From: Euzebya rosea
Lineage (GTDB): Bacteria > Actinomycetota > Nitriliruptoria > Euzebyales > Euzebyaceae
Direction: 5' to 3'
DNA: 64,000 bases
NCBI RefSeq assembly: GCF_003073135.1
Contig: NZ_PGDQ01000003.1
Location: forward strand, 62,001-126,000
This document shows positions 23,965-63,640 of this stretch, in pieces; position 1 is the first letter of the stretch; each line of letters opens with the position of its first letter. A model generated the notes under the pieces. It saw only the letters and a program-made list of their open reading frames with translations, did not search any database and was not told the DNA's origin. The position numbers and the translations under genes are program-made.

Positions 23965-24060
23965 GGTGGCGATGCCACACGGGGTTGGCCAGCGTGTGCC
24001 ATGGGCCACCCCCTGGGGCGGTGATGCCGCACGCCGCCGAGGGGTGTGTGCGATGGCCAC
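23965..24060. repeat. Dispersed intergenic repeat, copy C (related to 54.5-54.9 kb)
   Basis: CGATGCCACACGGGGTTGGC...CGTGTGCCATGG and TGCCGCACGCCGCCGAGGGG..TGTGTGCGATGGCCA align by eye with 54787-54876 (CGATCGCACGCGGGGTTGGG..., TGCCACACCCCGGCCGAGGG...). Both contain self-complementary CACAC/GTGTG arms. The rest of 24061-24193 has TACCAT at 24140-24145 as a possible cysS promoter -10, and no gene. Confidence 0.6.
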
Positions 24061-24193
24061 CCCGTCCGGGCTGGGATGCCACACGCGGAGGCGGTGCGCT
24101 CCATGCGTCGACGGGTGTGGGGACCCGCGTGACGGGCCGTACCATTGCCCGGCCACGTCCGACGACCGCGACCGACCCACGGGGCCAGACCCG

Positions 24194-46823: not shown

Positions 46824-48181
46824 CCCGCGCTCGCCTCGCCCTCGTCGCCACGCTGATGGCCCTCGCCGTCGTCGCGTCGGCCTGTGTGTCGCTGACCGGC
46901 AGCGACGACGCCCCCGAGGACATCGTCGTCACCGCCACGGTGCTGCGGACCGCCAACCTGTTCGTCGGGTCCGAGGTCCGCGTGCTCGGCGTACCCGTCG
47001 GTGAGGTGTCCGCCATCGAGCCCAAGGGCGACGTCGTCGACATCGAGCTGACCCTCGACGGCAGCCGCGACTACCCGGCCGACGTCAACGTCCGGCTGAC
47101 TCCCCAGTCCCTGCTCGGCGAGCGGTTCGCCGCACTCGACCCGCCCTACATCGAGGGGCCGACCCTCCAGACCGGTGCCCACGTGCCCATGGAGCGGACC
47201 GGCATCCCCGCCGAGGTCGACGAGGTCCTGCGGTCCTTCGAGGAGTTCCTCGCCGCGCTGGACGGCGACGCGCTGGCCGACCTGATCGACGTGCTGGCCG
47301 ACACCCTCGACGGCAACGGCCAGGGCCTCAACGACCTCATCGCCTCCGGTGCCGACACCGTCCGGGTGCTGTCGGACAGCTCGGTGGACCTCAACCAGGT
47401 GGTCCGTGACCTCGCCGACCTCAACGAGACCCTCGCCACCCGCGAGGAGCGCATCGGATCGACGCTGCGCAACACCTCCACGGTCCTGCGCAACCTGCAG
47501 GACGACCGCGACCTGCTGATCGGGGCGCTCAACGAGCTCCAGCGTGCCGTCGGGGAGCTGCAGCCGATCGTCGTCGAGCACGGCGACCCGCTGGTGCGTG
47601 ACCTCGACACCCTGGCCACGACCCTGTCCACGGTCGACCGCAACCTGGAGCGCATCGGCGACTCGCTCGTCGGCAGCCGGTCGCTGTTCGAGACCGCCGG
47701 CCGCGTCATCGACTGGGAGAACGCACGACTGCCGCTGGACAACGAGGCCGGCTACCTGACCGGTGCGCTGTCGGATCGGCTCGAGGACCGCATCCTCGGG
47801 CTGTGCCTCCGGCTGGACCTGGCCGACTGCAGCGTCGTCGAGGACATCCTGGCCGAGATCCCCGACCTGTGCCTTCCCGGCCTGTGCGTGGCCCCCGAGG
47901 GTGGCGGCACGACCCTCACCGAAGCCCTCGGCATCGCGCTGTCCTCACTCCCGCTGGAGGCCCGGACGGCCATCGCCGACGACATCGCCGCCAGGCAGGC
48001 CGAGGCGATCGCATCACCACCGGCGACGCCACCCGCCCCGGCGCCGCTGCCCGGTGCCGACCCGCGACTGTCGGGCCGTGGGTCCGTGCCCGTGCCGGAA
48101 GCCGACGGCGGCGGCAACGGCGGGCTGTTGCCCGACCTGGGCCTGCTCGGTGGTAGCGACGACGAGGAGGACGGCCGATGA
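46820..48181 (+). CDS. mceD: Mce family protein D, predicted lipoprotein
   Basis: 453 residues, GTG start overlapping mceC. The signal peptide ends V-V-A-S-A-C, a plausible lipobox, so the protein would be lipid-anchored in place of an anchor helix. Mce domain follows (V-R-V-L-G-V-P-V-G-E-V). Helical to about residue 280; C-terminal Pro/Gly-rich. In mycobacterial operons normally MceE is the lipoprotein, so two here is notable. Confidence 0.87.
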   Translation: MTRARLALVATLMALAVVASACVSLTGSDDAPEDIVVTATVLRTANLFVGSEVRVLGVPVGEVSAIEPKGDVVDIELTLDGSRDYPADVNVRLTPQSLLGERFAALDPPYIEGPTLQTGAHVPMERTGIPAEVDEVLRSFEEFLAALDGDALADLIDVLADTLDGNGQGLNDLIASGADTVRVLSDSSVDLNQVVRDLADLNETLATREERIGSTLRNTSTVLRNLQDDRDLLIGALNELQRAVGELQPIVVEHGDPLVRDLDTLATTLSTVDRNLERIGDSLVGSRSLFETAGRVIDWENARLPLDNEAGYLTGALSDRLEDRILGLCLRLDLADCSVVEDILAEIPDLCLPGLCVAPEGGGTTLTEALGIALSSLPLEARTAIADDIAARQAEAIASPPATPPAPAPLPGADPRLSGRGSVPVPEADGGGNGGLLPDLGLLGGSDDEEDGR

Positions 48182-49185
48182 CCCGCTGGTTGACCGCGGT
48201 CCTCGCGACGCTCGCCCTGCTCGCCGGCGGCTGCACGGGCAGCGACGCCACCGTCGTGCTGGCCACCTTCGAGGACGTCGCCGACCTGACGACCAACGCC
48301 TCGGTCCGCCTGGCCGACGTCCCGATCGGCACCGTCGCCGACATCGAGCTCGACAGCGAGCTGCAGGCGATGGTCACGATGGAGATCGACCCCGACGTCG
48401 CCCTGCCCGGCCGGCTGCGGGCCCGCCTGCGCAAGACGTCGGTCCTCGGCGAGCGCTTCATCGACCTCGTTCCCGTCGGCGAGGGTGGCGAGTGGATCTC
48501 GGGCAACGAGGTCGAGGACACCGAGGTCGTACCCGAGCTCGAGGAGGTCATCCAGACCTCCACCGACCTGCTCATCGCCGTCAGCACCGACACGCTGGCC
48601 GGCGCCATCCGCTCCGGCGCCGAGGGCCTCGACGGCCGCGGCGCCACCCTCGGACAGATCATCGACGACCTCAACGCCGTGTCGACGACCTACAACGCCA
48701 ACTCCGCGGACCTCGTCCGGTTGCTCGACGGGCTGGACCAGTTCCTCGACACCGTCGGCCCGCAGGCGGAGATGCACGGCCGGGCCCTGGCGGAGATCCA
48801 GCAGTTCACCCGGGTGCTGGCGGAGGAGGACGACAACCTCGTGGACACGCTGGTGAACCTCCAGGACCTGGCCGAGACCGGGACCGACATCATGGTCACC
48901 CACCAGCAGCGCATCGACGACTTCGTCCGGAGGCTGGACGGCATCACCGAGGAGCTGACCCGCGAGTCGACGCTCACCGCCCTCGACCGGCTGTTCGTCA
49001 ACCTGGCCCAGCACAACTTCTCCACCATCCGCGGCATCAACAACGAGCACGCGCAGGTGGTGCTCGACATGATCGTCTGCGGCATCAACGACATCCCGGG
49101 GGACCCGGTCCGTGGGTGCACCGACCCGCCGCAGGGGCGCGAGATCCCGACCCCCCGTCCGACACAGGTGGACTACGACCAGTGA
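48178..49185 (+). CDS. mceE: Mce family protein E, lipoprotein
   Basis: 335 residues, ATGA overlap. Lipobox L-L-A-G-G-C (Cys19), Mce domain (V-R-L-A-D-V-P-I-G-T-V) and helical region. Shortest of the six; it ends soon after the helices. Confidence 0.9.
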   Translation: MTRWLTAVLATLALLAGGCTGSDATVVLATFEDVADLTTNASVRLADVPIGTVADIELDSELQAMVTMEIDPDVALPGRLRARLRKTSVLGERFIDLVPVGEGGEWISGNEVEDTEVVPELEEVIQTSTDLLIAVSTDTLAGAIRSGAEGLDGRGATLGQIIDDLNAVSTTYNANSADLVRLLDGLDQFLDTVGPQAEMHGRALAEIQQFTRVLAEEDDNLVDTLVNLQDLAETGTDIMVTHQQRIDDFVRRLDGITEELTRESTLTALDRLFVNLAQHNFSTIRGINNEHAQVVLDMIVCGINDIPGDPVRGCTDPPQGREIPTPRPTQVDYDQ

Positions 49186-50423
49186 AGAAGCGGACGTTCA
49201 TCAACCTGGTCACCGTGGTGCTGGCCTCCTCGGTGCTGGCCCTCTACGCCCTCACACAGCTCGTCGCCGGCGCCGTGTTCGGACAGGGGTATCCCGTCTA
49301 CGTCGACCTGCCGGAGGCCGGGGGCCTGACGGAGAACAAGCAGGTCACCTACCGCGGCGTGGGCATCGGCAGCATCGCCAGCGCCGACCTGCACGAGGAC
49401 GGGGTGCGCCTGGAGCTGGAGATCGACCAGGACGCCCGGATCCCCGAGGACGTCGACCTCGTCGTCCTGCGCCAGTCCGCGGTCGGTGAGCAGGCCGTCG
49501 ACTTCCGCCCGCGTGTGCCGGAGTCCGCCACGACGCAGTACTACGAGGAGGGCGACGTGATCGTGCCCCTCTCCATCGTGCTGCCCACCAAGCCCGAGGA
49601 CCTGCTCGAGGTCGCCAACCGCGTGTTCGGCAACGTCGACAACGACCAGGCCGCCAGGCTGATCAGCGAGCTGGCCGACACCGTCCGTGGACGGTCGGAG
49701 GACCTGCAGTCGATCATGACCGACTCCGCGGCGCTGTCGGAGTCCGTGGCCGACAACGGTGCGGAGTACGACCGCCTGTTCGCCGCCAGCCGCATCGTCA
49801 ACGCCTCCCTCGCGGAGAACCGGGACGTCCTGGCCGACCTGCTGACCGACTTCGCCGACAGCGCCCAGCTGATCGGGGAGATCAGGGCCGACGTCGACGG
49901 GCTGCTCGACACGGTCCCGCCGACCCTCGCGCTCACCACCTCGGTGCTGCAGCGCGGCGACGCGAACCTCGCCTGCTCGATCCGCGACCTCGCCAACCTC
50001 AACGAGTACGTCAGCGACGCGCCCAACCTGGAGAACCTCGGCGAGACGATCCGCCAGCAGGCCTACTTCTTCGACGCCTTCCGGATCATCGGGCCGACGA
50101 GCGCCCAGGGCGAGCCGTGGCTGCGCGTCAACTTCCTGCTCGAGCCCGAACCGCCAGCCGAACGCTACGTTCCGCGGCGGCCCATCCCCGACACCCTGCC
50201 CGGTGGGGCGTGCGAGTCGGTCTTCGGACCCGGCGCCACCTCGGCGTTCCAGCTGAACCACCAGCTGGCAGTCCCGGAGGGAGAGGTCGTGCGCCCGGAG
50301 AACGACCGCGGCAACCCCGAGGCACGGGTCTCGACGTCGGCTGGTCTGTCCCGCCTGCTGCGCCTGCCCGACCTCTCGGTGCCCGTCGCCCCCGGCGGCT
50401 CGGAGGTGGGCAGCGGTGGCTGA
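49182..50423 (+). CDS. mceF: Mce family protein F
   Basis: 413 residues, GTG at 49182 overlapping the mceE stop; the frame is open far upstream but that is the shadow of mceD/E. Anchor helix residues 8-30, Mce domain (V-T-Y-R-G-V-G-I-G-S-I), helical region, C-terminal Pro/Arg-rich part with two Cys. Confidence 0.9.
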   Translation: MKKRTFINLVTVVLASSVLALYALTQLVAGAVFGQGYPVYVDLPEAGGLTENKQVTYRGVGIGSIASADLHEDGVRLELEIDQDARIPEDVDLVVLRQSAVGEQAVDFRPRVPESATTQYYEEGDVIVPLSIVLPTKPEDLLEVANRVFGNVDNDQAARLISELADTVRGRSEDLQSIMTDSAALSESVADNGAEYDRLFAASRIVNASLAENRDVLADLLTDFADSAQLIGEIRADVDGLLDTVPPTLALTTSVLQRGDANLACSIRDLANLNEYVSDAPNLENLGETIRQQAYFFDAFRIIGPTSAQGEPWLRVNFLLEPEPPAERYVPRRPIPDTLPGGACESVFGPGATSAFQLNHQLAVPEGEVVRPENDRGNPEARVSTSAGLSRLLRLPDLSVPVAPGGSEVGSGG

Positions 50424-51096
50424 CCGTGCCACGGTGCCCCACGACATCGGTGGGGACGACCTCGACGCGGACGCCCTCGCCGGTGACCGGGCCACCACGG
50501 TGCGGCCGGCCGACGGCCTGCCCGACACCGTCGCGGTCCCGGTGCGCAGCCTGCTGTGGCGCGCCCGGATCGGCGTCGCCGTGGGTGCGCTCGGCCTGAT
50601 CCTCGCCGCCGTGTTCTTCCTCGGTGCGCAGGACCTCCGTCGCGAGGCTGCCGTCCGCGAGGACGTCCGCGAGGCCGGTGAGCTGGTGGCCCTGCGGGTC
50701 ACCACCTTCGAGGGCAGCGACATCGACGACTGGGTCACCGACACCCAGAGCCTGTCCACCGGCGACTACGCCCGAGAGGTCGCCGAACGGTTCGACCCCG
50801 CCATCAGGCAGGGCCTGGCCGACGCGCAGGTCCAGTCGGTGGGCACGGTGCTGAGCGCCTTCGTGCAGGACGTGCGGGACGAGACCGCGACCGTCTTCGC
50901 GGTCATGCGCCAGACCTACACCTCTGCGCTGCAACCCCAGCAGGTCTCCGACGAGCTTCGCATGGAGATCGAGCTGACCCTCGTCGAGGGGGAGTGGCTG
51001 GCCAGCGACGTCGCCGTCCTCGGACCCTCGACCATCACCCCGATCGACCAGGACGCCGCGGGGCCGTCCGGCGATCCCGAGCCCGAGGAGGGCTAG
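50416..51096 (+). CDS. Mce-associated membrane protein
   Basis: 226 residues, GTG start overlapping mceF by 8 bases. Cytosolic N-tail, one helix (residues about 50-70), then an extracytoplasmic alpha/beta domain of the Mce-associated (Mas/Mam) type (R-E-A-G-E-L-V-A-L-R-V-T-T-F-E near residue 90). Thought to stabilise the Mce complex. One such gene here; mycobacterial operons usually have two or more. Confidence 0.78.
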   Translation: MADRATVPHDIGGDDLDADALAGDRATTVRPADGLPDTVAVPVRSLLWRARIGVAVGALGLILAAVFFLGAQDLRREAAVREDVREAGELVALRVTTFEGSDIDDWVTDTQSLSTGDYAREVAERFDPAIRQGLADAQVQSVGTVLSAFVQDVRDETATVFAVMRQTYTSALQPQQVSDELRMEIELTLVEGEWLASDVAVLGPSTITPIDQDAAGPSGDPEPEEG

Positions 51097-51933
51097 ATGT
51101 CCGTCTACAGTTCCGTGATCGTCGGCACCGACGGGTCGGTGACCGCCGGCCGCGCGGTCCGCCGGGCCGCCACCGTTGCCGCCGGCATCGGCATCCCGCT
51201 GATCGTCGCGACCGCGTACACGCGCGTCCGGCCCGAGGAGCTCGGCCCCCGGTCGGTGCAGGCAGAGCTTCCCGAGAACATCGGGGCGTTCGGCTACATC
51301 GGCGCGCAGGAGACCGCCCGCGACGGCGTGTCGATCGCACTGAAGGCCTTCCCCGACCTGGACGTCGACGTGGCCACCCCGCAGGGCGACCCCGCGGATG
51401 CGCTGCTGGAGTTCACCGAGACCCGCGGCAACGCGCTGCTGGTCATCGGTGGCCAGGGCCTCGGGGCGACCGGGCTGTTCCTGCTCGGCAACGTCCCCAA
51501 CAAGATCACCCACCACGCCGTCGGCGACGTCATGGTCGTCCGCACCGGCCGTGAGCGCGAGGACGAGGCCCCTCGCCGGGTCCTGATCGGCACGGACGGG
51601 TCCAGGACCGCCACCAAGGCGCTGGACCGCGGCATCGCCGTGGCCAGCTCGCTCGGCGCAGGCGTGACGGTGCTGACCGTCGGCCGGTCCAGCTGGGCCG
51701 CCGACGTGCTGGCCGAGGCGTCGGCCCGGGTCGAGGCCGCGGGTGTGCCGGTCGAGACCGAGCAGCACGACGGCGACGCCGCCGCGGTGCTGGTCGAGCG
51801 TGCCGCGGACTACGATCTGCTGGTGCTGGGCAACCGTGGCATGACCGGCGCCCGCCGGTTCCTGCTCGGCAGCGTCCCCAACAAGGTGTCGCACCACGTG
51901 GGCGCGGACCTGCTGATCGTCAAGACCACGTGA
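51097..51933 (+). CDS. Tandem universal stress protein
   Basis: 278 residues with two Usp domains. First: I-V-G-T-D-G-S near residue 8 and G-L-F-L-L-G-N-V-P-N-K-I near residue 127; second: I-G-T-D-G-S near 163 and G-N-R-G-M-T-G-A-R-R-F-L-L-G-S-V-P near 245. The second shows the ATP-binding G-2x-G-9x-G(S/T) pattern better than the first. Starts directly at the stop of the Mce-associated gene and precedes the ATPase, so it is embedded in the Mce operon, perhaps as a nucleotide-sensing regulator. Confidence 0.9.
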   Translation: MSVYSSVIVGTDGSVTAGRAVRRAATVAAGIGIPLIVATAYTRVRPEELGPRSVQAELPENIGAFGYIGAQETARDGVSIALKAFPDLDVDVATPQGDPADALLEFTETRGNALLVIGGQGLGATGLFLLGNVPNKITHHAVGDVMVVRTGREREDEAPRRVLIGTDGSRTATKALDRGIAVASSLGAGVTVLTVGRSSWAADVLAEASARVEAAGVPVETEQHDGDAAAVLVERAADYDLLVLGNRGMTGARRFLLGSVPNKVSHHVGADLLIVKTT

Positions 51934-51985
51934 TCGCTGCACCACGCCGGGAGACCGCCGGATCCATACAGAAGCGAGGCCACCG

Positions 51986-53302
51986 ATGACCGACCACGAT
52001 CATGAGCTGCCGAAGCCGCCGCGTGCGGCGTCCGCCGTGCCGCCGCCCGTCGTGCCCGGGCCGCCGGCCACCGGGCCGTCGGGCGTGGGTGCCGGGTCGA
52101 CCATCGAGTACGACCTGCACCCGTCGGGGTCCACCTCGGTCCGTCCGGGGTCGGCCTCGCCCACCCCGCCGGCACCGGCGCCACCCGCGCCCCAGCCGCC
52201 CCCGTTCCCGGCGTCCTCCCCCCCGCAGACGCAGGAGACCGTGCACCAGTACGACCACCAGCCGCAGTCCAGCTCCGTCGCGGTGCTCAACGAGCCGATC
52301 CCCACCGGGTTCGGCGGCCAGCTCGAGCTGGACGAGTACGGCAACCCGGTCCCGCCCCCCGAGGGATTCGAGCTGCCCGACGGGTGGGCCCCCTGCCCAG
52401 ACGGGGCCGACCGGCGCGAGTGGGTCCTCGACCCGACCCAGCCCGAACCGAAGATCCGGATCCGCCACCTCACCAAGGCGTTCGGGTCCCGGGTCATCTG
52501 GGAGGACCTGACCTTCGACATCCCCAAGGGCAAGGTCACCGTGGTCCTGGGGCCGTCCGGTACCGGCAAGTCGGTGCTGCTGCGCCACCTGATCGGCTTG
52601 CTGCGCCCCACAGAGGGCCAGCTGTGGGTCGACGACAAGAACGTGCCGACCCTGCGCAACCGGCCGCTGCTGGAAGTGCGCAAGAAGTACGGCGTGCTGT
52701 TCCAGGACGGTGCCCTGTTCGGCTCGATGACGATCTACGACAACGTCGCCTTCCCGCTCCGCGAGCACACGCGCAAGAACGAGAAGGAGATCAAGGAGAT
52801 CGTCGAGTACAACCTCGAGATCGTCGGCCTGTCGGATGCCGCCAAGCTGTTCCCCGGTGAGATCTCCGGCGGCATGCGCAAGCGTGCGGGCCTGGCCCGC
52901 GGGCTGGTCCTGGACCCCGAGATCCTGCTGTTCGACGAGCCGGACTCGGGCCTGGACCCCGTCCGCACGGCGTTCCTGAACGAGCTGATCCTGGACCTCA
53001 AGGAGAAGCTCGACTCGACGTTCGTGATCGTGACCCACCACATCCCGACGGCCAAGAACGTCAGCGACAACCTGGCGCTGCTGTACCGCCGTCAGCTGAT
53101 GCTGGCCGGCCCGAAGGAGCGCCTGCTCAACTCCGACATGGCCGTGGTCCGCCAGTTCCTGCGCGGTTCGACGATGGGCCCGATCGGGATGAGCGAGGAG
53201 AAGGACTCCGGCGACGTCACCGCCAAGTACGACGAGTCGGCGGACCAGTTCTCGCTGGAGGACATGCGCGACGACGCCGAGCTCCCCGGCGCCGAGCGGT
53301 AG
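51986..53302 (+). CDS. mkl: Mce system ABC ATPase (MlaF/Mkl type)
   Basis: 438 residues. An unusual Pro-rich, disordered N-terminal extension of about 150 residues precedes the ABC domain: Walker A G189-P-S-G-T-G-K195-S, signature I-S-G-G-M-R-K-R-A-G near 292, Walker B L-L-F-D-E-P near 314, switch His in V-T-H-H. Energises the YrbE permeases. C-terminal tail acidic. Last transport gene of the operon. Confidence 0.93.
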   Translation: MTDHDHELPKPPRAASAVPPPVVPGPPATGPSGVGAGSTIEYDLHPSGSTSVRPGSASPTPPAPAPPAPQPPPFPASSPPQTQETVHQYDHQPQSSSVAVLNEPIPTGFGGQLELDEYGNPVPPPEGFELPDGWAPCPDGADRREWVLDPTQPEPKIRIRHLTKAFGSRVIWEDLTFDIPKGKVTVVLGPSGTGKSVLLRHLIGLLRPTEGQLWVDDKNVPTLRNRPLLEVRKKYGVLFQDGALFGSMTIYDNVAFPLREHTRKNEKEIKEIVEYNLEIVGLSDAAKLFPGEISGGMRKRAGLARGLVLDPEILLFDEPDSGLDPVRTAFLNELILDLKEKLDSTFVIVTHHIPTAKNVSDNLALLYRRQLMLAGPKERLLNSDMAVVRQFLRGSTMGPIGMSEEKDSGDVTAKYDESADQFSLEDMRDDAELPGAER

Positions 53303-53398
53303 GTCGGATCCGGCCGGGTTGTCGAGCGACACGCGGCTGGCAGGGTTGCCTCGGTGCCCGACGGGCGCCCATCGACTGACGACGCGAGGCTGCAGGTC

Positions 53399-54352
53399 AT
53401 GGCCGAGATCTCCCTGGACAGACACGAGGCCCCCGGTGTGGGGCAGCTCGACACGATCCTTCCGCGGATCGCCGACGAGGTGGCGGAGCTGACCGGGCAG
53501 GGCCGGGTGGCCGACTACATCCCGGCCCTCGCCCGCGTGCCCGCCGAGCGGTTCGCCCTCTCGGTCAACCCGCTGCGTGGCGAGCCGGTGCACGTCGGGG
53601 ACCACGACACGACGTTCTCCATCCAGTCGATCTCCAAGGTGTTCACGCTGACCCTTGCGCTCCAGCGGTTCGAGGGCGACCTGTGGACGCGGATCGGGCG
53701 GGAACCCTCCGGTGACCCGTTCAACTCCCTGGTGCAGCTCGAGCACGAGAACGGCATCCCGCGGAACCCGTTCATCAACGCCGGGGCGATCGTGGTGGCC
53801 GACCTGCTGCTGACCTGCCTGGAGGACCCGCTGCACGAGCTGGTCACCATGGTCAGCGAGCTGGCCGGCTCCAAGATCGTCGTCGATGGCGAGGTGGCGC
53901 TCAGCGAGGCCGAGACGGGCTATCGCAACCGGTCGCTCGCCCACCTCATGAAGGGGTTCGGCAACATCATCCACGACCCCGAGGACGTGCTGGACGTCTA
54001 CTTCGCCCAGTGCTCCCTGGCGATGACCAGCGACCAGCTGGCCCGGTCGCTGGCCTACCTGGCCAACGATGGGGTCGACCCGGTCTCGGGCGACCGCGTG
54101 CTGGAGGTCAGCCAGGCCCGGCGCGTCAACGCCCTGATGTTGACCTGCGGGACCTACGACGCGGCCGGCGAGTTCGCCTTCCGCGTCGGCATCCCCTGCA
54201 AGTCCGGCGTCGGCGGGGGAGTGGTCGGCATCGTCCCCCACCACATGACCGCCTGCGCCTGGTCCCCGGGCCTGGACCACACCGGCAACTCCGTGAAGGG
54301 CCGCGCCGCCCTCGAACACCTCGTCACCCAGACCGGCCTCTCCGTGTTCTGA
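53399..54352 (+). CDS. glsA: Glutaminase (GlsA family)
   Basis: 317 residues. Serine-dependent beta-lactamase-like glutaminase: Q-S77-I-S-K80-V-F catalytic motif, R-N-P-F-I-N-A-G-A-I near residue 122, and G-I-P-C-K-S-G-V-G-G-G near 263. Hydrolyses glutamine to glutamate and ammonia. ATG 53399 fits the family start; a GTG at 53354 would add 15 residues. Follows the Mce ATPase by about 100 nt, same strand, without an obvious functional link. Confidence 0.93.
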   Translation: MAEISLDRHEAPGVGQLDTILPRIADEVAELTGQGRVADYIPALARVPAERFALSVNPLRGEPVHVGDHDTTFSIQSISKVFTLTLALQRFEGDLWTRIGREPSGDPFNSLVQLEHENGIPRNPFINAGAIVVADLLLTCLEDPLHELVTMVSELAGSKIVVDGEVALSEAETGYRNRSLAHLMKGFGNIIHDPEDVLDVYFAQCSLAMTSDQLARSLAYLANDGVDPVSGDRVLEVSQARRVNALMLTCGTYDAAGEFAFRVGIPCKSGVGGGVVGIVPHHMTACAWSPGLDHTGNSVKGRAALEHLVTQTGLSVF

Positions 54353-54520
54353 GTTTGTTGGTCCTCGCTCTGCTGGCTGGTCCTCACTCCGTTCGGACGG
54401 TCCTCGGGCTCGTGACCGACGATCCGCTCCGCCGATTCTCGCCTCTCGCAAGCTCGTGGCTGCGAGTCTTGCTCACGGAGCGTCGGCGCCCTGCGGCGGT
54501 CTGTGGTCGGTTCGGTCGCC

Positions 54521-54690
54521 GTGGTCGGGCTGGCGTGTGGCTTGGGCGTCTCTGAGGGTGGCCGATCGCACGCGGGGTGGGGCCTCGTGTGCGATCCACG
54601 CCCTCCGGCGGCGTGGGTGCCACACACCGGCCGAGGGTGTGCGCGATGGACAGCCCAAGGGGAGGGTGAACGCACACACCAGTTGTGTGC
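54521..54690. repeat. 170-bp direct repeat, copy A
   Basis: Aligns without gaps to copy B at an offset of 226 bp, with scattered mismatches. Contains hairpin-forming arms, for example GCACACA-CCAGT-TGTGTGC at 54672-54690. Confidence 0.85.
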
Positions 54691-54746
54691 CGGGGCCGCC
54701 GAGGTGCCGACGCGGCGCCGCCGCCCGGCGTGGCGCCCGGCCGCCC

Positions 54747-54916
54747 GTGGTCGGGCTGGGGTGTGGCCTGGGCGCCGCTGAGGGTGGCCGATCGCACGCG
54801 GGGTTGGGCCGCGTGTGCGATGGATGCCTTCCAGCAGCGTGGGTGCCACACCCCGGCCGAGGGTGTGCGCGATGGACAGCCCAAGGGGAGGGTGAACGCA
54901 CACACCAGTCGTGTGC
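54747..54916. repeat. 170-bp direct repeat, copy B
   Basis: Second copy. Holds CACACCC-CGGCCGA-GGGTGTG (perfect stem, near 54847-54867) and an imperfect stem around CGATCGCACGCGG/CCGCGTGTGCGATGG near 54789-54823. Related to copy C at 24.0 kb. Confidence 0.85.
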
Positions 54917-55158
54917 GGTGCCCACCGTGGTCCCCACGCACCGCCGCAGGGCGCCGACGACTCCGTGGTGGAGCACCGCAGTGTCCGATGCGAAGCGAGG
55001 ACCGAGGAGCTCGCGCCGCGGATCGTCGGTTGCGAGCCCGAGGACCGTCCGAGCGCAGCGAGGCAGTGTGAAGGGACCAACCAACAACCCGAGGACCAAG
55101 GACGACCACCCCGCCCACATGGTCCGGTGGGGGAGGGTTCTCGGGTCGATCCCGCCGC

Positions 55159-55164
55159 TACCCT
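55159..55164 (+). promoter_or_regulatory. Candidate -10 of a leaderless transcript for the RodZ-like gene
   Basis: TACCCT ends 8 nt before the ATG at 55173. Confidence 0.4.
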
Positions 55165-55172
55165 CGACCTGC

Positions 55173-56000
55173 ATGGCCGGAATCGGAGAGACGCTGCGGG
55201 CAGAGCGTCGGCGGCAGGGGCGCACCCTGGCCGACGCTGCCGCTGAGACGCGTGTACGTGAGTCCTACCTCGCCGCGATCGAGGAGGACGACTTCGCCGT
55301 GCTCGGCGGGGACGTCTATGCCCGCGGCTTCATCCGCCTCTACGGGCGATACCTCGACCTCGACGCCGAGGCGCTGGTCGAGGCCTACCGGGCCAACCAC
55401 GACACCGGTGAGGAGGTCGCGGCCTTCCCCGGCTCCAGCATCGACGACATCCTCCCGCCAGACGGTGGCACCCGACTGCCGTTCAACCCCGCGATCCTCG
55501 GGGCCGTCGGGCTGGTGGCCCTCCTCGTCATCGCCTTCTTCGCCTTCCGCGGTGGCGGCGAGGCCGAGGGCGAGGCCACCGAGGACCCCAACGCCCCCGG
55601 TCCCTCGCCGGCGGAAGTCGCCGAGGTCCCCGACGAGGCCCCCACGGAGGACGACGGGCAGGCGCTGGCCAACACCCCCGCCGACCCCCTCGTCGACGCC
55701 TCCACACCTGCCCAGCTCGACGGCCCGGCGCTCACCGAGGTGGTCATCGAGGTCTCGGTCCTGCAGCCCGTCCGGCTCAACGTCGTCGAGGGCCAGCCGC
55801 CCGTGAGCAACGCCCAGCTGGACGTCGGTGACTCCCGCACCCTGACCGGTGATCCGGCCGTGGTGTTCAGGGTCAGCGATGCCGCCGCCGTCGACATCAC
55901 CGTCAACGGCCTACCATTGGTCGGCCTCGGCGGACCCGGACAAGCCGTCGAGGTGTCCTGCGCCATCGGCGAGCAGGCCTGCCAAGTTCGCGTGATCTGA
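55173..56000 (+). CDS. RodZ-like helix-turn-helix membrane protein (DUF4115)
   Basis: 275 residues. N-terminal Xre-type helix-turn-helix (G-E-T-L-R-A-E-R-R-R-Q-G-R-T-L-A-D-A-A, residues 5-70, including G-D-V-Y-A-R-G-F-I-R-L-Y-G-R-Y), a membrane helix at about residues 110-128, an acidic/Pro linker and a C-terminal beta domain (residues about 190-275). RodZ links MreB to the envelope; actinobacterial homologues precede rimO-pgsA as here. It ends 8 nt before rimO. Confidence 0.88.
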   Translation: MAGIGETLRAERRRQGRTLADAAAETRVRESYLAAIEEDDFAVLGGDVYARGFIRLYGRYLDLDAEALVEAYRANHDTGEEVAAFPGSSIDDILPPDGGTRLPFNPAILGAVGLVALLVIAFFAFRGGGEAEGEATEDPNAPGPSPAEVAEVPDEAPTEDDGQALANTPADPLVDASTPAQLDGPALTEVVIEVSVLQPVRLNVVEGQPPVSNAQLDVGDSRTLTGDPAVVFRVSDAAAVDITVNGLPLVGLGGPGQAVEVSCAIGEQACQVRVI

Positions 56001-56008
56001 GCCCCATC

Positions 56009-57409
56009 GTGACCGACTCCACCCTCACCCCTCCCGCCAGCGACCGTCGTCGCGTGGCCATCGTCACGCTGGGCTGCGGCCGCAACGAGGTGGACTCCGA
56101 CAACGTCGGCGGCCTGCTCGGCAGCGGCGGCTTCGACATCGTCGACGACCCCGACGGCGCGGACTGCGTGATCGTCAACACCTGCACGTTCATCGGCCCG
56201 GCGCGCGAGGAGTCCATCGAGACCGTCCTCGACGCCGTCGACGGGGACCGGCCGGTCGTCGTCATGGGCTGCATGGCCGAGCGGTACGGCGACGAGCTCG
56301 CCGAAGCCGTCCCCGAAGCTGCCGCCGTCGTCGGGTTCGGCCAGTACACCCAGCTCGCCGACATCGTCGGCCGGGCCATCGACGGGTCCCCGGCCGTCGC
56401 ACCAGCCACCATCGCGCCGGCGTCCACCGGACGCCGTGGCCTGCCGGTCCTCGGCGCCGGCCCCGCCGGACCCGACGCGCCGCCCAACGTCTCCTTCCCG
56501 GTCCGCACCGTCCCCAAGGGGCCGTGGGCCTACCTCAAGATCGCCGGCGGCTGCGACCGCGTCTGCACCTTCTGCTCCATCCCCTCCTTCCGTGGGCGCT
56601 TCGTGTCCCGGCCGCTGGAGGAGCTCGAGGCCGAGGTGCGCTGGCTGGCCTCCACCGGCGTGCGCGAGCTGGTCTGCGTCAGCGAGAACACCACTTCCTG
56701 GGGCAAGGACCTCGACAGCGGCCGCCACGGCCAGGTCGACCTCGTCGAGATGTTCGACCGGGTCGAAGGGCTGGAGATGGTCCGCCTGATGTACCTGCAG
56801 CCGGCCGAGATCATCCCCGAGCTGCTCGACGCGATGGCCGCCTCCGACACCGTCGTGCCCTACTACGACCTGTCGTTGCAGCACGCCAGCGAGTCCGTCC
56901 TCGACCGCATGGCCCGCTCGGGGTCGCCCGAGCGCTTCCTCGACCTGATGGAGGGCATCCGCCGGCGGGATCCCGACGCGGTCTTCCGCTCCTCCTTCAT
57001 CACGGGTTTCCCCGGTGAGACCGAGGCCGACGTCGAGACGTTGATGGACTTCGTCGGCGACGCCGGGATCGACTGGTCGGGTGTGTTCACCTACTCACCC
57101 GAGGACGGCACCCCCGCCGCCACCATGGACGACCAGGTCCCCACCGACGAGGCCCGTGCCCGCGCCGACGCCGTCACCGAGGTGATCGAGGCCGTCGCGC
57201 AGGAACGCACCGACGCCTTCGTCGGCCGGACCCTGGAGATGCTGGTGGAGTCCCACGAGGGCGACACCGCCATCGGCCGCAGCTACCGCGAGGCCCCAGA
57301 GACCGACGGCGAGATCCGCGCCGAGGGCGTGCAGACCCCGGTCGGGCGCATGGCGCCGGTCACCATCGTCGCCAGCGACGGCGTCGACCTCGTCGCCCGG
57401 CCGGCGTAG
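56009..57409 (+). CDS. rimO: Ribosomal protein S12 methylthiotransferase RimO
   Basis: 466 residues, GTG start. N-terminal UPF0004 domain with three Cys (L-G-C-G-R-N, N-T-C-T-F-I, M-G-C-M-A-E-R), radical-SAM cluster C182-D-R-V-C186-T-F-C189, followed by I-P-S-F-R-G-R-F, which separates RimO from MiaB. C-terminal TRAM domain (residues about 395-462). Methylthiolates an Asp of S12. The stretch at residues 125-155 before the SAM domain is Pro/Ala-rich and longer than usual. Confidence 0.93.
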   Translation: MTDSTLTPPASDRRRVAIVTLGCGRNEVDSDNVGGLLGSGGFDIVDDPDGADCVIVNTCTFIGPAREESIETVLDAVDGDRPVVVMGCMAERYGDELAEAVPEAAAVVGFGQYTQLADIVGRAIDGSPAVAPATIAPASTGRRGLPVLGAGPAGPDAPPNVSFPVRTVPKGPWAYLKIAGGCDRVCTFCSIPSFRGRFVSRPLEELEAEVRWLASTGVRELVCVSENTTSWGKDLDSGRHGQVDLVEMFDRVEGLEMVRLMYLQPAEIIPELLDAMAASDTVVPYYDLSLQHASESVLDRMARSGSPERFLDLMEGIRRRDPDAVFRSSFITGFPGETEADVETLMDFVGDAGIDWSGVFTYSPEDGTPAATMDDQVPTDEARARADAVTEVIEAVAQERTDAFVGRTLEMLVESHEGDTAIGRSYREAPETDGEIRAEGVQTPVGRMAPVTIVASDGVDLVARPA

Positions 57410-57420
57410 CGGACAGGGAC

Positions 57421-58056
57421 GTGGCCGACACCGACCACCCCCACGGCGACCACCCCACCGGCGGCGCCGCGGCGGCGACGGCGGAACCCTCCCCCCTCAA
57501 CCTGGCGAACGCCTTCACGTTCCTGCGGGTCCTCCTGGTGCCCGTCATCGGGGTCCTGCTCGCCCGCAGCAGCGGCGACGCCGGCACCGCCACCCGCTGG
57601 TGGGCGTTCGGCATCTTCGTCTTCGCGGCCCTGACGGACTCCATCGACGGCTGGGTTGCCCGGCGGCTGGTCGGCGTGACCCGCTGGGGACAGCTGGCCG
57701 ACCCCCTGGCGGACAAGCTGCTGATCATCGGGTCGCTGGCGATCCTCGCGGCGCTGGGGGAGCTCCCATGGTGGGCCGTCGTCGTCATCATCGCCCGCGA
57801 GGTGTTCGTCACCTGGCAACGGGGCGCGCTGCTGCGGGACCACGACGTCGTCATGCCCGCCAGCGTGTGGGGCAAGGTCAAGACCGTCACGCAGGTCATC
57901 GCCGTGACCCTGTACCTGTACCCCGGGGTGGCCGACGTGGCGTTCGTGGTGCTGCTGCTCGCCGTCGCGGCGACGGTCGGCAGCGGACTGGAGTACCTCG
58001 CCCGCGTCCAGCGGCTTCGCCAGCAGGCCATCGCCGCCGCCAACGGAGGATCATGA
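57421..58056 (+). CDS. pgsA: CDP-diacylglycerol-glycerol-3-phosphate 3-phosphatidyltransferase
   Basis: 211 residues, GTG start. CDP-alcohol phosphotransferase motif D-S-I-D-G-W-V-A-R-R then G-Q-L-A-D-P-L-A-D-K at about residues 70-100, preceded by N-L-A-N-A-F-T-F-L-R. Five to six helices. Makes phosphatidylglycerophosphate. In the conserved rimO-pgsA-cinA-recA order; stop overlaps cinA. Confidence 0.94.
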   Translation: MADTDHPHGDHPTGGAAAATAEPSPLNLANAFTFLRVLLVPVIGVLLARSSGDAGTATRWWAFGIFVFAALTDSIDGWVARRLVGVTRWGQLADPLADKLLIIGSLAILAALGELPWWAVVVIIAREVFVTWQRGALLRDHDVVMPASVWGKVKTVTQVIAVTLYLYPGVADVAFVVLLLAVAATVGSGLEYLARVQRLRQQAIAAANGGS

Positions 58057-59312
58057 CCGTGGGGACGACCGCAGAGATCATCGCGATCGGCGCCGAGCTG
58101 CTGCTTGGCGACAACACCGACACCAACTCCACGTGGTTGTCGCAGCGGCTCGTCGAGCTCGGCGTGACCGTGGTCCGCCACACCTCCGTCGGTGATGGGA
58201 TCGACGACATGGCCACCGCGCTGGAGGAGGCGCTCGGGCGTGCGGACGTGGTGCTGACCACCGGCGGGCTCGGTCCGACCCAGGACGACCTCACCCGGGT
58301 CGCCCTCGCCCGGGTGGCTGGCGCGCCGCTGGTCCGCGACGAGGCGACCCTGGCCGATATCCAGGCGTACTTCGAGTCGCGAGGCCGCGTCATGTCGCCG
58401 TCCAACGCCCAGCAGGCCGACATCCCCGAGGGTGGCCGCTGGTTGACGCGCGTCGGCTCCGCACCCGGCCTGGCGCTGGAGGTCGACGGCGGCCTCGTCG
58501 TCTGCATGCCGGGTGTCCCGAGCGAGATGCACGTCATGTTCGAGCAGGACGTCGTCGCGATGCTCGTCGAGCGTGGCGGCCTGTCCACGACCGTCACCCG
58601 TACCGTGCGCACCGCGGGGCTCAGCGAGAGCGGCATCGCCGACACGCTCGCCGAGCTGGTCGCCCGGGTCGAGCGCGACGGCGGCCCGACGATCGCCTTC
58701 CTTGCCTCCAGGGGCGAGACGCGGGTCAAGGTGACCGCGACTGCCCCCGACCGGCCCACCGCGCTGGCCGCCATCGACCCGGTGGTGGAGGAGGTCGTGG
58801 CCCTGCTCGGCACCGGGGTCATGGGCCTTGACGACGAGGGGGTCGAGCACGCCATCGGACGCCTGCTGGGGGCCCACGGCTGGACGCTCGCCGTGGCCGA
58901 GTCCATGACCGGAGGAGGAGTGGGGGCACGCCTCGTGACGGTCCCCGGTGCGTCCGCGTGGTTCCGCGGTGGCCTGATCACCTACGCGACCGAGGTCAAG
59001 GCGTTGCTGGCCGGCCTGGACCCTGCGGGCCTGGCCGGGACCGGCCCCGTCGAGGGGGCGACCGCGGAGGCCCTGGCCCGCGCTGCCGCGGAGCGCTGCA
59101 GCGCCGACGTCGGGCTCGGCATCGTCGGCGTGGCCGGCCCCGAGCCGGTCGGTGACGCCCCGGTCGGCACGGTTCGGGTCGCGGTCGTGGTGGCCGGCAC
59201 CACGGCCGTGGTCGAGGAGATGCGGATGCCCGGCCGATCCCGCGTCGACATCCAGTCCTTCGGGGCGTCCGGCGCCCTGTCGGTGCTGCACGCGGTCCTG
59301 CGGACCGCCTGA
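58053..59312 (+). CDS. cinA: CinA-like protein (competence/damage-inducible; NMN deamidase-type C-domain)
   Basis: 419 residues, ATG at 58053 overlapping pgsA (ATGA). N-terminal MoCF-like domain (I-G-A-E-L-L-L-G-D, T-T-G-G-L-G-P-T-Q-D-D) and C-terminal CinA domain (A-V-A-E-S-M-T-G-G near residue 283, G-V-A-G-P near 360). Family members have ADP-ribose pyrophosphatase and nicotinamide-nucleotide amidase activities. Shares a base with thpR. Confidence 0.94.
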   Translation: MTVGTTAEIIAIGAELLLGDNTDTNSTWLSQRLVELGVTVVRHTSVGDGIDDMATALEEALGRADVVLTTGGLGPTQDDLTRVALARVAGAPLVRDEATLADIQAYFESRGRVMSPSNAQQADIPEGGRWLTRVGSAPGLALEVDGGLVVCMPGVPSEMHVMFEQDVVAMLVERGGLSTTVTRTVRTAGLSESGIADTLAELVARVERDGGPTIAFLASRGETRVKVTATAPDRPTALAAIDPVVEEVVALLGTGVMGLDDEGVEHAIGRLLGAHGWTLAVAESMTGGGVGARLVTVPGASAWFRGGLITYATEVKALLAGLDPAGLAGTGPVEGATAEALARAAAERCSADVGLGIVGVAGPEPVGDAPVGTVRVAVVVAGTTAVVEEMRMPGRSRVDIQSFGASGALSVLHAVLRTA

Positions 59313-59869
59313 TGCGCAGCTTCGTCGCGCTTCCCGTCCCAACGGCGGTCGCGACGATGATCCAGCCGGCAGTCGGCGTCCTGCGGGACCGCTGGCCGGG
59401 GCTGCGCTGGACCGATCCGCTGGGCTGGCACCTGACCCTCGCGTTCCTGGGCGAGGTCGACGATGCGACGGCGACCGCGGTGTGCGACGCGGTCCGGTCC
59501 GCTGTCGCGGATGTGCCGTCGGTGGCGGTTCGCCTGCCGGGGTCTGCCGACACCGCACCCGGGTCACGGGGGATCGTGTGGCTTCCTGTGACATCACCGC
59601 CGCTGCCCGCGCTGGCAGAAGGAGTCCGGGACGCCTGCGACGCCGCCGGGGCCCCGCCGGACCGCGACCGGGCGTTCCGAGGACACCTGACCCTCTGCCG
59701 GGTCCCGCGCCGATCGACGGACGATCCCGCCGCACTCGCCCGGACGGTCGCGGCCGCCTACGACGGTCCGCCGCTGTCGTGGACCGCCGACCGGGTCGAG
59801 GTCCTCCGCAGCGACCGCACCGCCACCGGCGCACGGTACGTGGAGCTGGCGAGCATCCCGCTCACCTGA
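59312..59869 (+). CDS. thpR: RNA 2',3'-cyclic phosphodiesterase (2H family)
   Basis: 185 residues. Two HxTL motifs, H40-L-T-L43 and H125-L-T-L, define the 2H phosphoesterase fold; opens with M-R-S-F-V-A-L-P, as usual. Acts on cyclic phosphate RNA ends. The stop codon lies in the first unit of a 15-bp tandem repeat. Confidence 0.92.
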   Translation: MRSFVALPVPTAVATMIQPAVGVLRDRWPGLRWTDPLGWHLTLAFLGEVDDATATAVCDAVRSAVADVPSVAVRLPGSADTAPGSRGIVWLPVTSPPLPALAEGVRDACDAAGAPPDRDRAFRGHLTLCRVPRRSTDDPAALARTVAAAYDGPPLSWTADRVEVLRSDRTATGARYVELASIPLT

Positions 59870-59898
59870 CCCCCGCTCACCTGCCCCCCGCTCACCTG
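59858..59898 (+). repeat. 15-bp tandem repeat spanning the thpR stop codon
   Basis: CCGCTCACCTG at 59858, 59873 and 59888. The first copy encodes the last codons of thpR. The remaining sequence to 60060 shows no gene. Confidence 0.85.
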
Positions 59899-60060
59899 AC
59901 TGACCCCGCACCGAACGCGGGCCGGTCAGGGGGACAGTGGAGGATCAGGGGTCGATGTCACACCGCGGGCGTACGCTTCGGGCATCGGAATCACGGGTGT
60001 GTGATTACCGACCGGTCGTGGGGATGCGACCGGGTGACACGGGAAGGCAGGCGCAGAAGG

Positions 60061-60498
60061 ATGCACGACGCCCAGGGGAACGCGGTCACCATCGACCTGA
60101 CCGACGACACGACCGCCAGGCGGTTCGGCGCGACCACGCTGCCGGTGGGCCGTCGGGCCCAGCTGCTGGCGCTCCGGCAGCAGCTGGAGTGGTGCGAGCA
60201 GGCCGTGATGGCCGCCCAGCGCGACGCCGACCGGGCGATGCGCAGCAGCGACCTGAGCGACGACGAACGCTGGCGGGCCGTCCAGAAGCTCAGGGCGCTG
60301 TCGTGGAAGGTCTGCCGCGAGGTGCTGCCGCTGATCAGCCGCGTCCCCCCGGGACTGCGTGATCACGAGGCCTACAGGGGCGTGGAGGAGGCGGGCCACT
60401 CGCTGCGACGGCGGACCGAGGACGCCATGCGCGACAACGCCAACTACGCCGTCGACCTGGTGAACGCCGCCAACGACCGGGTCACGGCCCGCTGGTGA
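60061..60498 (+). CDS. Hypothetical protein, helical, charged
   Basis: 145 residues, not recognised. No signal peptide or membrane helix. Mostly helical with many Arg/Asp/Glu; Q-Q-L-E-W-C-E-Q-A-V-M-A-A-Q-R-D-A-D-R-A and W-K-V-C-R-E-V-L-P-L-I are the most distinctive parts. ATG 60061 follows CAGAAGG closely. Lies between thpR and recA. Codon use (GC-rich third positions) supports a real gene. Confidence 0.65.
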   Translation: MHDAQGNAVTIDLTDDTTARRFGATTLPVGRRAQLLALRQQLEWCEQAVMAAQRDADRAMRSSDLSDDERWRAVQKLRALSWKVCREVLPLISRVPPGLRDHEAYRGVEEAGHSLRRRTEDAMRDNANYAVDLVNAANDRVTARW

Positions 60499-60561
60499 CG
60501 CCCGCCGGCTGACGACGGGCCGGCGCCAGGCATGCCGTCCACGGACGTCCCCTCGACATGC

Positions 60562-60590
60562 TTGGCACTCGAACGATTGTTCGATACCGT
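60562..60590 (+). promoter_or_regulatory. recA promoter with LexA (SOS) box
   Basis: Perfect actinobacterial LexA site TCGAAC-GATT-GTTCGA at 60569-60584. TTGGCA (60562-60567) and TACCGT (60585-60590) are 17 bp apart, so the operator fills the spacer. LexA would repress recA-recX until DNA damage. Leader of roughly 120 nt to the recA ATG with AGGAGG ahead of it. Confidence 0.85.
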
Positions 60591-60716
60591 GGGGGGAGGT
60601 GCAGTTGTCCACAGCCGCGTCGGATCATCCGGCCTCGATGTCACACCCCCGACGTACCGTCGACCAGACAGACCCACACAGACCCACACCGGCCGCGAGG
60701 CCGGCAGGAGGACACC

Positions 60717-61769
60717 ATGGCCAAGACCGACCGTGAGAAGGCGCTCGAGCTGGCGCTCGGTTCGATCGAGAAGCAGTTCGGCAAGGGCGCGATCATGCGC
60801 ATGGACGAGGGTGCCCAGCAGAAGGTCGCCACGATCCCCACGGGCGCGATCGGCCTGGACGTCGCGCTGGGTGTGGGCGGGTTCCCCCGTGGACGGGTCT
60901 GCGAGATCTACGGCCCCGAGTCCAGCGGCAAGACGACCGTGGCCCTGCACGCCATCGCCGAGGCGCAGAAGGCCGGCGGGATCGCCGCGTTCATCGACGC
61001 CGAGCACGCGCTGGACCCCACCTACGCCCGGGCGCTCGGGGTCGACGTCGACGCCCTCCTGGTGTCCCAGCCCGACACCGGTGAGCAGGCCCTGGAGATC
61101 ACCGACACGCTCGTCCGCTCCGGCGCCGTCGACCTGCTCGTCGTCGACTCCGTGGCTGCCCTGACGCCCCGTGCCGAGATCGAGGGCGAGATGGGCGACT
61201 CCCACGTCGGCCTGCAGGCCCGCCTGATGAGCCAGGCGCTGCGCAAGCTCGCCGGTCACCTGAACAAGTCCCGGACCTGCTGCATCTTCATCAACCAGCT
61301 GCGCGAGAAGATCGGCGTGATGTTCGGCTCGCCCGAGACCACCCCCGGCGGTCGTGCCCTGAAGTTCTACTCCTCCGTGCGGTTGGACATCCGTCGCATC
61401 GAGTCGCTGAAGGACGGCCAGGACTTCGTCGGGAACCGGGTTCGTGTCAAGGTCGTGAAGAACAAGCTGGCCCCGCCCTTCCGCAAGGCCGAGTTCGACA
61501 TCATGTTCGGCGAGGGCATCTCCAAGGAGGGCTCGTTGATCGACATGGGGGTCGAGCACGGGATCATCCGCAAGGCGGGTGCCTGGTACACCTACGACGG
61601 CGAACAGCTCGGCCAGGGCCGCGAGAACGCCCGCAGCTTCCTCAAGGAGCACGGCGACGTCGCGGACGAGATCTACAAGCGGACCATCGAGATGCTGGGC
61701 CTCGTGCCGACCGACGTCACCGGCGACGACAGCCTCGAGATCGACGAGGCGCTGGCCCTCGACGCGTGA
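60717..61769 (+). CDS. recA: Recombinase RecA
   Basis: 350 residues. Walker A G66-P-E-S-S-G-K-T73, the M-R-M-D region, [16 protein letters not shown] (L2 loop start), K-N-K-L-A-P-P-F. Strand exchange and LexA co-protease. ATG at 60717 after GGAGGACACC. No intein. Confidence 0.98.
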
Positions 61770-62389
61770 GCGACCCGGAGGTCATCGCCCGCCTCCGTGC
61801 CGCGATGGAGGCGGCCGGGGTCGACAGGACTGCCCCGGGCGCCGCTGCGCCCGACGCTGCTCCCGACGATGTCCCCGGTGGCTTGGCGGGCGTGCCGGAC
61901 GACGTGGACGCAGCGGCACTGTCCAAGGCGATCGCCTACCTGACCCGCAGCGCGTCACGTCATCCGCTGACGGTCGCGGAGGCGCGCGACAAGCTCATCG
62001 CACGCGAGTACGACGACGCTGTCGCCGACGCGGCGGTCGCCCGCGCCGTCGCGACGCGGATGCTCGACGACGAGGGGTTCGCCCGCGCATGGGTGGATGA
62101 CCGCGGGGTCAAGCGGGGCTACGGCCGGCGTCGGCTGCACCGCGAGCTCACGAAGCGAAAGGTCCCCGAACCGGTCATCGACGCAGCGCTGGCCCAGCTC
62201 GACGAGGTCGACGAGACGGCCCAGGCGCTGGACTTCGCACGCCAGCGCGCCCAGCGGATGCCGGCCGACCTGCCGCCGGCGCGGGTGGCCCAGCGGCTGG
62301 TCGGCATGCTCGTCCGCCGCGGGTTCGACTCGGGTACGGCGCACCAGGCCGCTCGCGAGGCCACCGCCCTCGACCGCGACTGGGACTGA
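61766..62389 (+). CDS. recX: Regulatory protein RecX
   Basis: 207 residues, GTG start overlapping the recA stop. Three-helix repeats with [14 protein letters not shown] near residue 70 and [14 protein letters not shown], typical of RecX, which modulates RecA filaments. The N-terminal 50 residues are low-complexity. Confidence 0.93.
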
Positions 62390-62417
62390 ACTGGATTCAT
62401 TCCCCCGGACGAACCGC

Positions 62418-62445
62418 GGACCCCGCCGGGTGATCGACGGGGTCC
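62418..62445 (+). terminator. Candidate terminator after recX
   Basis: GGACCCCG (62418-62425) pairs with CGGGGTCC (62438-62445), 12-nt loop. No T-run follows, so efficiency is uncertain. Confidence 0.5.
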
Positions 62446-62483
62446 GAGGCCCTAGGAGGCTGGTGTCTCTGGAGGTGAATGGC

Positions 62484-62575
62484 CCACACGGCCTGGCGGC
62501 CTGCACGGCCTGGCGGCCTGCACGGCCTGGCGGCCCATACGGCCTGGAGGCCCATACGGCCTGGCGGCCTACACG
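62484..62575. repeat. 17-bp tandem repeat array, five units
   Basis: CACGGCCTGGCGGCCTG-type units (CACGG/TACGG CCTGGCGGCC) repeat about five times and run into the stop codon (62569-62571) of the minus-strand gene. Contains internal GGCC palindromes. Confidence 0.85.
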
Positions 62576-63402
62576 TCCAGGGTGGTGACCGTCAGGCGGT
62601 CGGCGCGGCGGCGCATGCCGTACCCGGCAGCGCCGAGCAGGCCGAGGCCGGTCGCGGTGATCCAGGCGGCCGACCCGTCGGTGTAGGGGACCATCGCGGC
62701 GCCGGTGAACCGCAGGGCGTCGGCGGCGGCCTGCTGGATCGGTGCGGCCGTGGTGGTGGGGGGCGCGATCATCGGGGTCTCGTACTCCATCGGGACCGAG
62801 ACCATGGGCGCTTCGTAGGGCTGCAGCGTCAGGCCGTTCTGGCTGCGGACGCCGTCGATGTTGGCGCCGAGGTTGGCCGGCTGGATGGTCGGGGTGCCGG
62901 CGACGCGACCGTCGGCGGCGGGGGCCTGGGGCTCGACGACCTCGGTGGGGGCCTTGCCGGCCGCCGTCACCTTGGTGGGCTCCGCCTCGGCGCCGTCGTC
63001 GGTGGTCACGGTGCCGCCCTGCGAGCCGGACTGGGGTGCGGGCGCCGCCGGGGGAGCGGGGACACCCTGGTTGTCGTCCGCGGGAGCGTCGTCCCCGAGC
63101 AGTCCGGCGGGGACCTCCTCCACCAGGGGGGCGACCGCGTCCAGGGGCAGGGCGTCGGTCACGGGGGCGACGGCCTCCACGACCGGGGCGACCGTCTCGA
63201 CGACGTCGTCGACGACACCGCAGGCCGCATCCACGATCGGGTCGGCGCTGGACTCGGCGGCGCAGGCCGGCAGGGTCTCCTGGGGGGTGTCCAGCAGCTG
63301 GGCCGTCACCGGGACGACCGGCAGCAGCATCGCCGCACCGGCCAGGCTGGTGAACGCGATGGCACGGGGGGTGCGACGACGGGGGGAAGTGGGGTGGGCC
63401 AC
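62569..63402 (-). CDS. Secreted protein with LRFTG sorting-like C terminus, function unknown
   Basis: 277 residues, GTG start at 63402 with GGAG 9 nt upstream; longer in-frame starts exist but spoil the signal peptide. A signal peptide (R-R-R-T-P-R-A-I-A-F..., cleavage near T-A-Q) leads into a Val/Pro/Ala-rich, acidic, probably disordered region without a catalytic motif. The C-terminal L-R-F-T-G, a helix (residues about 248-264) and R-R-R-A-D-R form an arrangement like a sortase signal, but with LRFTG rather than LPxTG. No sortase gene in the window. Likely surface-exposed. Confidence 0.7.
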   Translation of the reverse strand: MAHPTSPRRRTPRAIAFTSLAGAAMLLPVVPVTAQLLDTPQETLPACAAESSADPIVDAACGVVDDVVETVAPVVEAVAPVTDALPLDAVAPLVEEVPAGLLGDDAPADDNQGVPAPPAAPAPQSGSQGGTVTTDDGAEAEPTKVTAAGKAPTEVVEPQAPAADGRVAGTPTIQPANLGANIDGVRSQNGLTLQPYEAPMVSVPMEYETPMIAPPTTTAAPIQQAAADALRFTGAAMVPYTDGSAAWITATGLGLLGAAGYGMRRRADRLTVTTLDV

Positions 63403-63640
63403 TGGGGGATCTCCTGCGGTTCGGTGCGGCTCTTCGCGGAACCCAACGACGCCCGCTGCGTCGTGTGACGGTTCTTCAGTGGAGTTTTCGCCCTTCGACA
63501 CCGGATCTCCTGCTGTCGGTCGGACAGTGGAGGTATCGGGTGACCGCGGCCGGACCTGTAGGACGTTGTCCTGTGACGCCGCGGTCATGGATGGACCAGC
63601 GGCGCCCGGGGGGCGGCTGGGCAGTCTCGACCACAACCCG

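Follow-up and report, generated by a model that had tools for sequence, protein, structure and literature searches.

Pneumococcal BOX elements and other modular intergenic repeats are mosaics of separate modules in varying combinations, and three-site recombination or regulatory sites, such as resolvase res sites, comprise three dyads for three dimers within ~120–140 bp. In Bacillus, tandem repeats of constant length and variable sequence have been described in 52-nt (±1) and 20–21-nt types, both unexplained, the former shared with other Firmicutes (Subirana and Messeguer, PMC8161180). According to the same study, the 52-nt type occurs only in Firmicutes, in arrays of 4–37 repeats (four being the search threshold), and is transcribed in Bacillus coagulans; its authors proposed a protein that requires a constant repeat size in order to polymerize (PMC8161180).

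A 52-bp period also governs an intergenic element of Euzebya rosea, which was followed up here from the window, a 64,000-nt stretch of the 5.5-Mb draft genome (G000). The element and the two genes on either side of it are arranged as follows (window coordinates):

53399–54352, + strand: upstream gene (glutaminase-like), outside the element
54358–54506, + strand: left arm, type A, made up of a short GTTGGTCCTCGC...GGACGGTCCTCGGGCTCGTGACCGACGA unit, a long stem-loop and a small CGCCCTGCGGCG hairpin
54535–54677, + strand: module U1, triple dyad (dyads 54535–54573, 54587–54625 and 54639–54677, with 13-bp linkers)
54761–54903, + strand: module U2, triple dyad (dyads 54761–54799, 54813–54851 and 54865–54903)
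54930–55086, − strand: right arm, type C, in the opposite orientation to the left arm
55074–55100, − strand: the outermost GGACCAACCAACAAC/GAGGACCAA unit in further copies
55173–56000, + strand: downstream gene (RodZ-like helix-turn-helix protein), outside the element

The window element is a combination of two repeat families, inner dyad modules and separate arm hairpins. The first-pass annotation had described inverted arms around two direct repeats, with GTGTG/CACAC dyads between the arms and no coding signal, and this anatomy was borne out over 54358–55100. Three pairs of arm segments are complementary in inverted orientation, namely 54382–54432 with 55013–55063 (51 nt, 86% complementary), 54481–54506 with 54934–54959 (26 nt, 92%) and 54358–54383 with 55074–55099 (26 nt, 81%); the dyads are present, and a codon-usage gene caller found no gene between the end of the glutaminase-like gene at 54352 and the start of the RodZ-like gene at 55173. 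Both direct repeats are there too, although each measures 212 nt (54519–54730 and 54745–54956, 87% identity, 226 bp apart) and not the 170 bp first given. U1 corresponds to a covariance-model match at C3:116532–116680 (E 5e-29), and U2, which is 92% identical to U1, is its tandem duplicate.

The same annotation had placed the element at the point where an accessory block gives way to core genes. Synteny with Euzebya pacifica (G003) continues unbroken on both sides, at window positions 46997–54355 and 54747–63431 (87–89%), so the site is not an accessory–core junction, and the glutaminase/RodZ neighborhood is also the same in the other two Euzebya genomes (G001 and G002). At this site E. pacifica has a single U module and a right arm only, of type B where E. 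rosea has type C, and no counterpart of the left arm. Using the glutaminase as a query against genome contigs returned distant relatives only. Elsewhere in the window, another 143-bp triple-dyad module lies at 23942–24084, preceded by several tandem GGCGTGTGTGGCCTGACCGGCC units (~23837–23940); it is kept in the E. pacifica ortholog, where an additional gene is inserted alongside.

Searching the E. rosea genome with the window element (blastn) gave 49 matching stretches, and the element is thus not a chance occurrence; E. pacifica gave 44. A covariance-type module model yielded ~50 modules in E. rosea and ~30 in E. pacifica, as counted from the listed matches, and these counts rest on searches plus the stretches retrieved. 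Several E. rosea contigs end near modules (C11:89, C22:86 and C23:65183), suggesting that assembly was broken at the repeats and that the counts for this genome are minimum values. Comparison of loci showed that the arms and the U part are separable, occurring together or each alone. Of the first 23 E. rosea loci, 16 have an E. pacifica counterpart at the corresponding position, where the flanks are 82–96% identical; additional loci were later matched to E. pacifica places, and the majority of sites are occupied in the two species alike. Occupancy was species-specific at C8:45 kb, which holds a U triple, and at C9:103.6 kb, which holds an arm; the aligned E. pacifica positions have no counterpart of either.

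Across 66 genomes of the class, the module model (R2) found modules in these two genomes and none in the other two Euzebya genomes; matches in three other genomes of the class, at E 0.002–0.008, were borderline and judged to be noise. The distribution is that of an element with many copies which distant relatives lack, and not that of a lone sequence held in place across distant relatives. A plasmid or phage origin was rejected, as similar DNA is absent from PLSDB and INPHARED. The 571,580-bp E. pacifica plasmid (NZ_CP031166) carries none of the ~30 modules, but because only ~3 would be expected from chromosomal density, this absence is not significant. One E. pacifica U module, orthologous to that at C10:114 kb in E. 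rosea, contains an insertion sequence (L180:7300–8700, corresponding to ~4.391–4.393 Mb of G003 C1) with an ORF that by its appearance resembles an rve-type transposase (putative).

The module itself consists of three 39-bp dyads (GTGTGCGAT...ATCGCACAC) whose starts are exactly 52 bp apart, for a total of 143 bp. A position matrix for one 39-bp dyad, containing no spacing information, was scanned over the retrieved loci of both species: neighboring dyads were spaced at exactly 52 bp in 133 of 138 cases, and 58 of the 71 runs with more than one dyad had exactly three. Pairwise identity among 58 triples with exact 52/52 spacing ranged from 49 to 98% (mean 62%), with conservation fading a few bases beyond the outer half-sites, and a MAFFT alignment of 55 copies filled 151 columns with zero gaps. 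A sequence-agnostic self-similarity scan peaked in each species at lag 52 alone, with 17 windows apiece, as compared with at most 3 windows for other lags not divisible by 3.

Each module holds six GTGTGCGAT half-sites of alternating orientation. The half-site reads GTGTGCG(A/T)T and hardly varies at positions 1, 3, 5, and 9. GGGTG is favored at half-sites 2 and 5, making the entire 143 bp two-fold symmetric, and the correlation of the module with its own reverse complement is 0.85, vs. 0.04–0.06 at shifts of 1, 3, and 10 bp. At 10.5 bp per turn, 52 bp amounts to 4.95 turns, and the six half-sites are calculated to lie within ~90 degrees of one helix face.

In seven orthologous pairs of arm-free modules, identity was 96% over the 36 recurring positions, against 64% over the remaining 107. 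The 96% figure is somewhat circular, since the 36 positions were partly picked because they are conserved in the consensus; the contrast inside orthologous pairs and the gapless length are free of that circularity, with orthologous sites of the two species counting as non-independent samples. Module-to-gene distances differ between orthologs, and module length stays at 143 bp. We found no Watson–Crick covariation in the module dyads, for which 65.0% of cells were paired vs. 66.5% in shuffles and the covariation score was 0.102 vs. 0.115. Natural dyads also folded worse than two-dyad chimeras (−18.9 vs. −21.9 kcal/mol), and long perfect hairpins are perhaps avoided in the modules. Paired positions lacking covariation fit recognition of double-stranded DNA by a protein better than they fit an RNA hairpin. 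A single-dyad model with RNA structure was dropped when RNAalifold gave no consensus pair.

Modules are intergenic, lie at gene 3′ ends and almost never occur between divergent genes. In E. rosea, 16 were between convergent, 14 between tandem, and 1 between divergent genes, as compared with 2, 11, and 13 for module-free regions (≥150 bp) from the same loci; the corresponding figures in E. pacifica were 11, 10, and 1 for modules and 4, 34, and 26 for module-free regions. Gene calls for this comparison came from a codon-usage script, and with many sites common to both species, depletion of divergent pairs (Fisher p = 7.8e-5 in E. rosea and 1.2e-3 in E. pacifica) and enrichment of convergent pairs (p = 4.6e-4 and 2.2e-5) were found in each. 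Within tandem gene pairs, modules had no strand bias (10 same, 13 opposite).

The arms, ~140 bp in length, combine a long covarying stem with an almost invariant small hairpin, and fall into three loop types. The covariation score of the stem (0.172) was reached by none of 500 shuffles, but sliding the partner by one column still scored 0.159, so that support for arm-stem covariation is moderate. The right arms at five orthologous sites differ in type, E. rosea having C and E. pacifica B. Modules with arms resemble those at other sites of the same genome (0.81) more closely than they do their orthologs (0.69), and have therefore been homogenized within each genome or copied anew, whether through gene conversion or by transposition; arm-free modules give 0.69 between sites of the same genome and 0.70 to the ortholog. 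Composites of arm, U, and arm recur at several sites in both species, with the arms inverted around U at several of them, but arms on their own, like U modules without arms, are common. A search for the Y1/RAYT transposase (PF01797) was negative in all four Euzebya genomes, with positive controls. No target-site duplication was recognized at the inspected sites, whose empty counterparts are strongly diverged. The CGTC found in the arms lies inside the stem and is not a tag.

The other two Euzebya genomes carry different repeats with spacings of their own. In the same glutaminase–RodZ gap, G001 has an unrelated 45-bp dyad, GGTCTGTC...GACAGACC, which forms 23 intergenic clusters in that genome (16 pairs and 7 singles; loci L324–L353). 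Spacing was exactly 73 bp in all 16 pairs (e.g., L324:1517 and 1590), equivalent to 6.95 turns, and the G001 dyads show the same pairing shortfall as the triple-dyad modules (0.70 vs. 0.75 expected). G002 has arrays of a 20–21-bp unit with a constant GGTTCCCCA and a variable remainder (L282:18922, L291:4108, L295:710, L295:2383, and L278:3473); these resemble the 20–21-nt constant-length repeats reported in many bacteria. Expressed in helical turns, the three spacings (20–21, 52, and 73 bp) come to about 2, 5, and 7. Shared sites of the 73-bp pairs and the 52-bp triples were also considered, and two coincide, the window site included, which is about the chance expectation.

We give about even chances to the reading that the module is a platform for a putative protein assembling on one face of the DNA. 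The six half-sites, as three two-fold symmetric dyads 52 bp (~five helical turns) apart, would each offer half of a binding site to this sequence-specific protein, which may bind every dyad as a dimer, so that three dimers would sit side by side along one helix face. An assembly of this kind would demand a fixed spacing while tolerating free drift between the contacts. Since modules lie behind genes, above all between convergent ones, the complex would probably act as a boundary, either as a transcription roadblock or terminator or as a supercoiling or nucleoid anchor, although REP-type repeats that have no boundary function typically lie at 3′ ends as well. At the window site, the two modules may have arisen by tandem duplication of ~226 bp and been enclosed by two REP-like hairpin repeats, the arms, which would be copied or gene-converted between sites.

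The first-pass annotation had proposed a non-autonomous mobile or structural element. Its structural half suits the inner part, a fixed-length 143-bp triple dyad conserved in place, and its mobile half stands in part. If the element were a MITE-, BOX-, or REP-like composite, the arms would be its terminal inverted repeats, and a transposase supplied from outside would move the whole arm–U–arm unit, which is consistent with dispersed copies, with composites that recur at several sites in both species, with sites filled in one species only, and with the homogenization of arm-bearing, though not arm-free, modules. Yet the genus lacks Y1/RAYT, so that REP driven by RAYT was rejected, and a clean target duplication was not seen; most modules have no arms, and most sites are common to both species. 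Decay to 62% identity should also have brought indels, of which 55 modules carry none. We consider a mobile element rather unlikely, and this reading fits the arms at most. Hairpins that act in the transcript, by terminating transcription, shielding mRNA 3′ ends or serving as a small RNA, would likewise account for modules behind genes and between convergent genes, and the covarying arm stems and the transcription of the B. coagulans 52-nt repeats (PMC8161180) agree with such a role. An RNA-level element is nevertheless unlikely given modules that do not covary and fold worse than chimeras, the lack of a terminator-like site at modules in a search for intrinsic terminators and of any Rfam match, and an exact spacing of 52 or 73 nt for which RNA offers no obvious role.

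That the modules are functionless neutral debris of old repeats is highly improbable: fast sequence drift between modules is what such debris would show, but exact length, an exact count of three, and the 96 vs. 64% conservation in orthologous modules are not. A further candidate function derives from the topology of convergent genes. Gyrase wraps close to ~140 bp of DNA, and positive supercoils gather at convergent 3′ ends, as proposed for the BIMEs of Escherichia coli. A site at which DNA gyrase or a comparable topoisomerase wraps the DNA would accordingly suit the 143-bp length, the helical phasing, and the convergent 3′-end placement of the modules. Gyrase is conserved, however, whereas the half-site is not shared by G001 and G002, where it is entirely different, or by the remaining genomes of the class, which lack it, and we regard a gyrase site as decidedly unlikely.

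The reading of the module as a platform for a putative assembling protein might extend beyond this element. As a tentative suggestion, which we hold to be possible but doubtful, the modules may belong to a general, unrecognized class of bacterial chromosomal sites: species-specific dyad arrays with spacing locked to whole helical turns (~2, 5, and 7, for 20/21, 52, and 73 bp), each for a dedicated, fast co-evolving DNA-binding protein that would assemble at gene 3′ ends and set transcriptional or topological boundaries. Euzebya would then contain three versions.

Several known systems share part of this architecture. REP/BIME repeats are likewise ~40-bp intergenic palindromes that alternate in arrangement and lie at gene 3′ ends, but the Euzebya modules have a rigid 52-bp period and no hairpin covariation, occur in a genus without RAYT/Y1, and lack the GTAG/CGTC tag in the module and linker consensus. 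The mosaic of arms and U resembles BOX elements, except that U is invariant in length and rarely loses or gains single dyads. Compared with resolvase res sites, the modules are dispersed by the dozens and equally spaced, and no linked recombinase gene was noticed. The closest likeness is to the Firmicutes 52-nt repeats, and it extends to the 52-bp period, variable sequence, non-coding nature, many occurrences per genome, partial conservation between strains, and a short species-specific motif that occurs with its reverse in one repeat (here GTGTGCGAT...ATCGCACAC). Euzebya is an actinobacterium, however, and its modules nearly always have three repeats, where the minimum of four in Firmicutes is a search threshold and not necessarily biology; they also have an explicit 39-bp dyad and whole-module symmetry, and are often joined to a second hairpin repeat, while other Euzebya species use 73-bp pairs or 20/21-bp arrays. 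What is new is a 52 period outside Firmicutes, in a distant phylum, condensed into a single compact unit of 143 bp whose half-sites can be seen. The Euzebya case adds strong selection on length and a comparison of sister species, with other phased spacings substituted in other genomes of the genus, and its module makes the question of “why 52?” open to a small and direct experiment.
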